This document shows positions 3,216 to 7,563 of a DNA stretch of 21,658 nucleotides, piece by piece. Both the position numbers and the translations under genes were made by a program. The stretch is taken from positions 1-21,658 of IMG/VR virus record IMGVR_UViG_3300003324_000350; one strand, given 5' to 3'. Each line of letters opens with the position of its first letter. The stretch's first letter is position 1. This DNA comes from a virus. Below the pieces are notes generated by a model. That model had not been told where the DNA came from, did no database searches, and was given only the letters and a program-made list of their open reading frames with translations.

Positions 3216-4271
3216 ATGACTAACGTGCTGGTGGCGGACTGCCTGATCGCGATGGCGATGCTCGGCGCCGAGTCGGTGGACGCGATTGTCACCGATCCGC
3301 CCTACGGGCTGCGCTTCATGGGCAAGGCGTGGGACCACGGCGTGCCGGGCGTGCCGTTCTGGTCGGCGGCGTTGCGGCTGTTGAAGCCGGGCGCCCGCCT
3401 GCTCGCGTTCGGCGGCACGCGAACCTATCACCGATTGGCGTGCGCGATAGAGGACGCCGGGTTTGAGATCGAGGACTCGTTATGCTGGCTCTACGGGTCC
3501 GGGTTCCCGAAGCATGAGAGCAAGCTGAAACCCGCGTTTGAGCCGGTCGTGATGGCGCGGCGGCCGAGTAAGAAAGCGACGCTGTTGAACATCGACGCGT
3601 GTCGGTTGAGTGGCGAAGGATTGCACGAGGTGACGCAAGGCGCGCAGGATCGCGTTTACGGCAACGGAAACGGACTACGCTCGGAACCATCGCGTTACCT
3701 GCCGCCCTCCGGCCGCTGGCCCGCGAACGTGTTGCTAGACGAGGATGCGGCTGCAGCGCTGGACGCACAGAGCGGCACGCTGACCAGCAACAGCGGCGAA
3801 CCGTTCACGCGCAACACCGACAAGTTCCGCGCGACGTACAGCGCGTTCGCCGGTCGCGATGCCGAGGCGGGCTATTATGGCGACTCAGGCGGCGCTAGCC
3901 GGTTCTACTACACGGCGAAGGCGTCACGGTCAGAGCGCGAGGAAGGGCTAGGCGGCGCCGCCCGTCGGCCGGGCGGCGCCCATCGACACGGCCAAGGCAG
4001 CATTGGCAGCAAGGACGGGCGCGACCGGCAAGTGGCGAACCATCACCCGACCGTGAAACCCGTCGCCCTCATGCGCTGGCTTGTGCGGCTCGTGACACCG
4101 CCGAACGGGCTGGTGCTCGACCCGTTCTGTGGCAGCGGAACGACCGGAATCGCGTGCCACTACGAGGACCGCCGATTTATCGGGATCGAAGTGAGCGAAG
4201 AATACGCGGCGATCGCCCGCGCTCGGATCGCGCACCATTCCGCACAGCGAGGGCTCTTTGATGTGGCCTAA
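3216..4271 (+). CDS. Site-specific DNA methyltransferase (beta-class, N4-cytosine or N6-adenine)
   Basis: A 351-residue amino-methyltransferase. The catalytic motif DPPYG is near the N-terminus (27-31), and the AdoMet-binding motif DPFCGSGTTG is near the C-terminus (about 302-311). DPPY before FxGxG is the beta-class order. Phage-typical signatures include GRWPANVLLDED, ASRFYYTAKASRSERE and HPTVKPVALMRWL. The middle (about 110-250) should hold target recognition. It methylates the exocyclic amino group of a base in a specific site, probably to protect phage DNA from host restriction. It starts behind AAGGTGAGG and ends in QRGLFDVA, with a clamp-binding-like QRGLF. Its TAA stop lies in GCCTAACG. 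No partner restriction gene is present, so it is an orphan enzyme. Confidence 0.93.
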   Translation: MTNVLVADCLIAMAMLGAESVDAIVTDPPYGLRFMGKAWDHGVPGVPFWSAALRLLKPGARLLAFGGTRTYHRLACAIEDAGFEIEDSLCWLYGSGFPKHESKLKPAFEPVVMARRPSKKATLLNIDACRLSGEGLHEVTQGAQDRVYGNGNGLRSEPSRYLPPSGRWPANVLLDEDAAAALDAQSGTLTSNSGEPFTRNTDKFRATYSAFAGRDAEAGYYGDSGGASRFYYTAKASRSEREEGLGGAARRPGGAHRHGQGSIGSKDGRDRQVANHHPTVKPVALMRWLVRLVTPPNGLVLDPFCGSGTTGIACHYEDRRFIGIEVSEEYAAIARARIAHHSAQRGLFDVA

Positions 4272-4438: not shown

Positions 4439-5575
4439 ATGACTGAGCCGACCCCGTTGCGCGCCCCGTTCCCGTGGTTCGGCGGCAAAAGCCGCGTTGC
4501 TCACCTCGTGTGGGAACGCTTTGGCGATACGCCGAACTACGTGGAGCCGTTCGCCGGTTCGTTGGCTGTGCTCCTCGCTCGCCCCCACGAGCCGCGCACG
4601 GAAACCGTCAACGACCGCGACGGCTTCCTCGCCAACTTCTGGCGCGCGGTGCAGCACGCGCCGGAGCAAACGGCGCGCTTCGCGGATTGGCCCGTGAACG
4701 AGGCGGACCTCCACGCGCGGCACCGATGGCTACTCGCGCAGCGATCGGGTCTCTACGAGGCCATTCTGAGCGATCCCGATTGGTTCGACGCGAAGATCGC
4801 CGGCTGGTGGGTGTGGGGACTGTGCGCGTGGATCGGGAGTGGGTGGTGCACTGGAGGTGCGGCAACTCAGTTGCCGCACCTGAGTAGTGCCGGTATGGGG
4901 TTACACAGGAAAATCCCGCACCTCGGGACTGCTGGCTGCGGTGAACACCGCAGCCAGCACATGCCGCACCGGAAGCTCCCCGCGCTCGGAGACGCGGGGC
5001 GGGGCGATTTACGCCCCGCCCCATCGCAGCAGATTCCGCATCTCGGGAACGCGGGACGCGGTGGACACCGCGTCCCCACGGAACAGTTACCGGCGTTAGG
5101 TGACGGTGGGCGCGGCGTTCCTGTGAACGCCGCGCCGCTGGTCGAGCTGTTCCAAACGCTGTCGGCGCGGCTCCGGCGTGTTCGCGTTGCGTGCGGCGAC
5201 TGGACGCGCGTCATGGGCGAATCGGTGACGGTGAAGCACGGCCTCACGGGCGTGTTCCTCGATCCGCCGTACTCTGACGGCGAGCACGCCATCGAATACG
5301 CGGGCGGCGGCGACGTGGCTGCCGACGTGCGCGAGTGGGCCGTCGCGAACGGCGACAACCCACTGATGCGGATCGCGCTGTGCGGCTACGAGGGCGAGCA
5401 CGCGATGCCCGATGAGTGGGAGTGCGTGCCGTGGAAGTCCAAAGGCGGGTACGGTTCGCAGGGCGATGGGCGCGGGCGCGAGAACGCCGAGCGCGAACGC
5501 ATTTGGTTTTCCCCGCACTGCCTGAAACCGGAGCGCGTGCAGCGCTCCCTCTTCGATGACCTCCATGTCGCCTAA
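4439..5575 (+). CDS. D12-class N6-adenine DNA methyltransferase with hairpin-bearing repeat insert
   Basis: A 378-residue Dam-like enzyme of the D12 class. PFPWFGGK (10-17) and NYVEPFAGS (33-41) form the AdoMet site, and the catalytic DPPYSDGEHAIEYA starts at residue 275. In this class the target-recognition domain lies between them. Here that stretch holds tandem repeats (about 137-231) of the type (K/Q)(L/I)P(H/A)LG-x-AG-x-G: QLPHLSSAGMG, KIPHLGTAGCG, KLPALGDAGRG, QIPHLGNAGRG and QLPALGDGGRG. In the DNA, perfect hairpins fall at four repeat junctions and one at the entry. The enzyme should methylate adenine in a short site, giving restriction evasion or regulation. It ends in QRSLFDDLHVA, with a clamp-binding-like QRSLF, and its TAA stop lies in GCCTAACG. 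Start: ATG behind GGTGAGGGG. Confidence 0.92.
   Translation: MTEPTPLRAPFPWFGGKSRVAHLVWERFGDTPNYVEPFAGSLAVLLARPHEPRTETVNDRDGFLANFWRAVQHAPEQTARFADWPVNEADLHARHRWLLAQRSGLYEAILSDPDWFDAKIAGWWVWGLCAWIGSGWCTGGAATQLPHLSSAGMGLHRKIPHLGTAGCGEHRSQHMPHRKLPALGDAGRGDLRPAPSQQIPHLGNAGRGGHRVPTEQLPALGDGGRGVPVNAAPLVELFQTLSARLRRVRVACGDWTRVMGESVTVKHGLTGVFLDPPYSDGEHAIEYAGGGDVAADVREWAVANGDNPLMRIALCGYEGEHAMPDEWECVPWKSKGGYGSQGDGRGRENAERERIWFSPHCLKPERVQRSLFDDLHVA
4855..5136 (+). repeat. Five perfect inverted repeats in the methyltransferase repeat region
   Basis: Hairpin 1: arm AGGTGCGGCAAC 4855-4866, loop 3, partner 4870-4881 (12 bp). Hairpin 2: arm TGCTGGCTGCGGTG 4930-4943, loop 2, partner 4946-4959 (14 bp). Hairpin 3: arm GGGGCGGGGCG 4996-5006, loop 5, partner 5012-5022 (11 bp). 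Hairpin 4: arm GGGACGCGGTG 5053-5063, loop 2, partner 5066-5076 (11 bp). Hairpin 5: arm GGCGCGGCGTTC 5109-5120, loop 4, partner 5125-5136 (12 bp). Hairpins 2-5 occupy the same place in successive protein repeats, after LG-x-(A/G)G, yet their stems differ widely in sequence while pairing stays perfect. Confidence 0.95.
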
Positions 5576-7347: not shown

Positions 7348-7563
7348 GTGACGAAGTGGGGTGCGGCCTTCGCGCTCTGCGCGGTACTTGTCGCGACGTG
7401 CGCGAAGCGCGACGAGTACCGCGCGAACGGCCAGTACGAAGAACGCTGCCGCGCGCGCGGCGGCTACTGGCTGGACGATTCCATCCGGGTGGACTCTGTG
7501 CTGACCCGATGCATCGCCGCGCCGACGCCGATCATCCTCACGCAACCGGAGAAGCCGCGATGA
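7348..7563 (+). CDS. Small secreted or lipoprotein-like cysteine-containing protein
   Basis: A 71-residue protein read from GTG. MTKWGAAFALCAVLVATCAK is a plausible signal sequence with a basic start, a hydrophobic core and VATC as a non-canonical lipobox (Thr before Cys). The mature part has two further cysteines (ERCRARGGYW and LTRCIAAP). Small secreted proteins of this kind occur near lysis genes as spanin-like proteins, but no partner is visible. A competing ATG at 7344 in another frame would read MSDEVGCGLR and run to 7802; I prefer this frame because its stop is coupled to the next gene. Confidence 0.5.
   Translation: MTKWGAAFALCAVLVATCAKRDEYRANGQYEERCRARGGYWLDDSIRVDSVLTRCIAAPTPIILTQPEKPR

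Follow-up and report, generated by a model that had tools for sequence, protein, structure and literature searches.

In the yeast gene REG2, one event extended a 5-bp arm to a perfect repeat of 16 bp and inverted the spacer (Abraham and Hazkani-Covo 2021, PMC8604942). Fully inverted loops are also described as a footprint of inter-strand switching (PNAS 2022, PMC8794818). Palindromes in the coding regions of Nematomorpha mitochondria are either perfect or absent, and the authors suggest conversion or template switching as their origin (PMC6649704).

The hairpins discussed here are found in adenine DNA methyltransferase genes of phages, and have features in common with all these systems. As in REG2 and the other yeast genes, a short imperfect inverted repeat appears to have become long and perfect, with an inverted spacer and several amino acids altered at once. 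However, the yeast cases are not from phages, whereas here one phage gene family is affected recurrently, with up to five hairpins per gene, in a tandem-repeat array. The likeness to template-switch RNA hairpins lies in one-step perfect stems, apparent compensatory change and inverted loops, but those hairpins belong to RNA genes, and the array is protein-coding and has no sign of conserved RNA structure. With Nematomorpha, the phage genes share many perfect inverted repeats within protein genes and the binary character. The Nematomorpha palindromes are mitochondrial, have stems of up to 142 bp and occur in several genes, whereas the longest stems in the methyltransferase family have at most 20 bp and lie in the array of one gene. 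The original prediction considered the system undescribed. The kind of event is already known, but judging by the open-access literature, its density, the way it recurs within a single family of phage genes and its setting in a variable-copy methyltransferase array appear new. The sequence footprint suggests that most hairpins of the window and of its gene family probably arose by template switching during replication, with short inverted repeats as seeds.

The methyltransferase and its repeat array

The window, i.e. the whole stretch of DNA that was analysed, is a virus record of 21,658 bases. It carries primase, terminase, portal, major head protein and HNH genes, and therefore derives from a tailed phage. 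The features of interest are:

4439..5575, + strand: ORF of a D12-class adenine DNA methyltransferase, 378 aa, intact, with the array inside
4850..5140, + strand: array of five degenerate repeat units with the consensus QLPHLGxAGRGVHR, spanning about residues 138-234
4855-4881, + strand: hairpin 1, 13-bp arms, 1-nt loop C (4868); the loop as it stands fits the consensus QLPHL
4930-4959, + strand: hairpin 2, 14-bp arms, 2-nt loop AA (4944-4945); inverted to TT, CGEHR becomes CGVHR
4996-5022, + strand: hairpin 3, 11-bp arms, 5-nt loop ATTTA (5007-5011); with the loop inverted, GRGDLR becomes GRGVNR
5053-5076, + strand: hairpin 4, 11-bp arms, 2-nt loop GA (5064-5065); with the loop inverted, RGGHR becomes RGVHR
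5109-5136, + strand: hairpin 5, 12-bp arms, 4-nt loop CTGT (5121-5124); with the loop inverted, GRGVPVN becomes GRGVHRN

The protein encoded by ORF 4439-5575 matches Pfam PF02086 (MethyltransfD12; 35.1 bits, cut-off 22, residues 13-75) and phrog_56 (E 6.5e-23). Motif I (EPFAG) is located at residues 36-40 and DPPY at residues 275-278. In an alignment with 35 relatives, E36, P37, F38, G40 and D275-Y278 are invariant. The core has a predicted Dam fold, since the AlphaFold2 model of the enzyme superimposes on E. coli Dam (2g1p) with a Z score of 19.2 and an rmsd of 3.3 over 229 residues. The core fold and the order of the motifs, motif I before DPPY, are as in the D12-class enzymes Dam, DpnM and T4Dam. 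Unlike these, the window enzyme has a variable repeat array between motif I and DPPY, and its score against the NCBIfam Dam model TIGR00571 (27.8 bits) is far under the cut-off of 114.85. The array, in the interval from EPFAG to DPPY, occupies the place of target recognition in D12/Dam enzymes, in agreement with the original prediction. According to the 35-relative alignment and the IMG/VR scans, this position is conserved family-wide.

Fifty-three phage records match the enzyme, only three of them across most of the query, and none of the matches in plasmid records covers most of it. Two of these phage-record genes, L411 and L412, are free of hairpins of score 9 or more. For four of the queries, each scan of IMG/VR found 377 to 493 relatives. 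The searches reveal that phage adenine methyltransferases with a Dam-like core and a variable-copy array of 14-residue repeats form a large family.

The units, about 14 residues long, are arranged in tandem, and the length of the array across the family has a median of 77 aa and a range of 31-183. The AlphaFold2 pLDDT is below 50 for residues 128-230 and 32-40 for the array itself, so that no structural statement can be made beyond probable disorder. A comparison of repeat number between close relatives had been proposed with the original prediction, and the number does change. L109 and L160, which are 98.5% identical, differ by 168 nt, equivalent to four 42-nt units, and other close pairs of methyltransferase genes differ by 42, 84 or 126 nt. 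The array is therefore a variable-number tandem repeat at the strain level. Between relatives that are more than 76% identical, indels are mostly direct and often multiples of 42 nt. Growth of the array by inverted insertion in general was rejected, because inverted-copy insertions are rare at this level of identity.

Hairpins in the window and across the gene family

All five inverted repeats with perfect stems of 11-14 bp that had been predicted for the window were found again, with centre-to-centre distances of 55.5-76.5 nt (about 55-77 bases in the prediction). The loop length of 2-5 bases applies to hairpins 2-5, but not to hairpin 1, which has a 1-nt loop. The arms of all five hairpins are perfect, with no broken pair among 122 paired nucleotides. 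Hairpins 2-5 are placed, as described, at the equivalent position of successive units, after LGxAG or LGDGG, and their stem sequences differ. This is far more than chance would give: when the window is modelled as a first-order Markov chain, 21.7 kb should contain about 0.4 palindromes with a score of 11 and none above it, whereas several of score 11 or more are observed.

The window contains two further palindromes. The linker before HHPTVKP in the adjacent methyltransferase ORF (3216-4271) contains a perfect hairpin with 11-bp arms and a 5-nt loop (3954-3980); only two distant homologues are among the fetched loci. At 7379-7424, in ORF 7348-7563, there is a quasi-palindrome of 18 bp that has two mismatches and a loop of 10 nt; the protein of this ORF has no PHROG match.

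Palindromes scoring at least 11 number 18 in the 205 distinct homologous genes that were used for synonymous shuffling, compared to about 1.5 per shuffled set; for a score of at least 12, the counts are 13 and 0.5. Arrays were delimited in 160 of the genes, and perfect hairpins of at least 11 bp are confined to them (17 in 41.4 kb of array, 0 in 129.8 kb of core). The window gene carries five of these and L225 three. A uniform mutation rate cannot account for such clustering, the Poisson probability for a gene with five hairpins being about 1.7e-5 among the 160 genes. The hairpin bearers, which are scattered across the tree, are the window, L225 (contig of L037), L147 (L035), L082 (L024), L164/L295 (L062), L229, L217/L283, L219/L284 and L267; L484 was found later. 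The distribution is nearly binary: a gene has either no hairpin or long and perfect ones. Outside the D12 gene, the fetched parts of seven hairpin phages contain few such hairpins.

In the 152 other arrays, pairing is no more frequent than in synonymous shuffles, so that it does not characterise the family. The original prediction held that base pairing rather than peptide sequence appears to be kept, and named repeats lacking such an excess as the result that would contradict it. This is the result for the family as a whole, in which hairpins are sporadic. We also rejected the idea that seeds are programmed into the arrays, because short palindromes are not enriched in the same 152 arrays (score 5, 235 versus 261 in shuffles; score 6, 82 versus 92). 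At score 7, the arrays have 19 palindromes and the shuffles 33.5, a deficit that may reflect avoidance of seeds.

No relative of the window above 95% identity was among the fetched sequences. The nearest sisters are 68-82% identical at the nucleotide level, and relatives in this range lack the hairpins. The gain of an arm is visible for L164 and L267, although not as a clean single step. Compared with its sister L234 (78% identical), L164 has a net insertion near the hairpin, a 54-nt gap as aligned. A planctomycete chromosome (CP087563) has two copies of the gene, L249 and L267; the hairpin is present in L267 only, next to a 51-nt insertion relative to the L249 array.

Spacer orientation and probable template switching

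In most hairpins, one arm codes for the conserved unit and the other for the linker. For hairpins 2-5 of the window, and for hairpins of four further phages, taking the reverse complement of the spacer alone brings back the unit consensus. In L225 and L147, QVRHL becomes QVPHL; in L229, KRRSLG becomes KRPSLG; and in L082, RPVEQ becomes RPVLQ and GRGMNAS becomes GRGIHAS. To score spacer orientation, a motif profile was derived from hairpin-free arrays. By this measure, the inverted spacer agreed better with the consensus in 12 of 19 hairpins, worse in six and equally in one, so that inversion is favoured in 12 of the 18 scorable cases, which are spread over five phages. As a control, native short palindromes of hairpin-free arrays fared better on inversion in 10 of 151 cases and worse in 141 (Fisher p 1.1e-8 versus 12/18). 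A stricter control with mock segments of equal length, 3-24 nt away, gave 156 of 533 better and 377 worse (p 6.5e-4 versus 12/17 for the hairpins). These p-values indicate the strength of the pattern and are not an independent test, because the sequences that were scored are those in which inversion had first been seen.

The exceptions are window hairpin 1, L267, L283, L284 and L295 (at least 11 bp), and later L484, in all of which inversion is not favoured. Two cases are marginal in opposite directions. The second hairpin of L147 counts as inverted by its score, although it does not look so on inspection. With its spacer inverted, L164 regains the RRARGV of the sister L234, which is not captured by the motif score. 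In L484, the one independent hairpin found afterwards, the spacer already fits as it stands. This hairpin is located in the methyltransferase ORF at offset 450-476 (GTTGACGAGACGGGCCGTCTCGTCAAC; 13 bp, 1-nt loop), at a VDETGRLV segment upstream of the repeats.

Template switching, which the original prediction had listed among several options, is favoured by the inverted spacers together with the sporadic perfect stems. The seeds would be supplied by conserved codons of the unit, for example GCGGTG-NN-CACCGC in R-G-V-H-R and CAGGTGC-C-GCACCTG in Q-V-P-H-L. The nascent strand would copy the left flank L and the half-seed S, and then jump to the opposite strand via the complementary half-seed S'. 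There, the spacer and the upstream sequence would be copied backwards, before synthesis returns to the original strand. The expected product, L, S, the reverse complement of the spacer, S' and the reverse complement of L, is a long perfect palindrome with an inverted spacer. As both arms match after one such event, no selection for pairing would be needed, and the apparent covariation would arise in one step. The array seems to tolerate these events, with only in-frame products seen, and this tolerance would be understandable for a low-confidence, probably disordered region of variable copy number. What was measured is the footprint in the sequence; that a polymerase acted in this way, that it did so recently and that the protein tolerates the outcome are inferred.

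The clustering and the intact stems of the window do not sit easily with this model: all its events would have to fall within about 2.5% divergence, or else the arms would have to be repeatedly re-homogenised. Several recent events are plausible, given that arrays change by several units within 1.5% divergence. The original prediction also raised the possibility that the array changes enzyme specificity, and this may be so. It is a much bolder step, and a very unlikely one, to regard the unit seeds and the gain and loss of 42-nt units as a built-in device to diversify the recognition region of phage methyltransferases, in which template switching would rewrite linkers and loops and thereby change target choice.

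If most of the roughly 18 hairpins are template-switch-type scars, they form a natural series within one phage gene family, for which the unit consensus provides the internal control that exposes spacer orientation. They would also be a caution for covariation-based RNA discovery, because perfect covarying stems in coding regions need not imply selection for structure.

Other explanations for the hairpins

The hairpins could instead be selected nucleic acid structures, either in mRNA, where they might pace translation, or in DNA as cruciforms or binding sites, with stems that covary because pairing is kept. Perfect stems, up to five per gene and at an equivalent place in successive units, are what such selection might produce. 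The mRNA stretch folds with a z-score of -7.0, but this is a trivial consequence of the palindromes. We consider selection for structure unlikely in view of the absence of a pairing excess from the 152 homologous arrays and of the hairpins themselves from the relatives, and also because several loops have just 1-2 nt and inverted spacers are not predicted. A conserved RNA structure family was rejected, since there is neither an Rfam match at the gathering threshold nor a homologue-wide excess of pairing, and the suggestion that RNA structure acts during translation is unlikely on the same grounds.

As a general explanation, intrastrand fold-back priming is equally improbable. It would give rise to the palindromes, and recombination between the arms or processing of cruciforms would afterwards turn the spacers round. 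Fold-back predicts consensus-oriented spacers, as seen in L267, L284 and L484, and some hairpins would need it or another origin, because six do not favour inversion and the second L147 hairpin is marginal. With random flipping, however, about half of the spacers should be inverted, compared to 12 of 18 observed, including all four in window units 2-5, and two events are invoked where one suffices. As the margin over one half is not large, a mixture of fold-back and inter-strand switching is possible.

Repeated in-frame insertion of a mobile palindromic element, akin to the Rickettsia palindromic elements, would explain why a gene can have several in-frame hairpins of similar size, and would agree with the net insertions near the hairpin in the L164/L234 and L267/L249 pairs. 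Nevertheless, it is extremely unlikely. The stem sequences are unrelated except where unit codons dictate them, so that no element sequence is shared, one arm in most cases codes for the conserved unit, and hairpins are few elsewhere in these contigs. The idea of a hairpin element that spreads inside genes, also put forward originally, is disfavoured for the first two of these reasons. An artefact of metagenome assembly or amplification, conceivable as nearly all cases are metagenomic contigs, has an equally negligible chance, because the reading frame is intact through five hairpins, L267 comes from a complete bacterial chromosome, the hairpin contigs belong to separate IMG/VR records, and the inverted spacers fit the unit consensus.

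A phage gene that drives hairpin formation was rejected as well, because D12 alone is common to the fetched hairpin contigs, which are partial and have naive gene calls. The contigs G001-G008, G010, G011, G013 and the window, also partial, are otherwise different, and D12 is the only gene that most of them share, as if it travelled alone.
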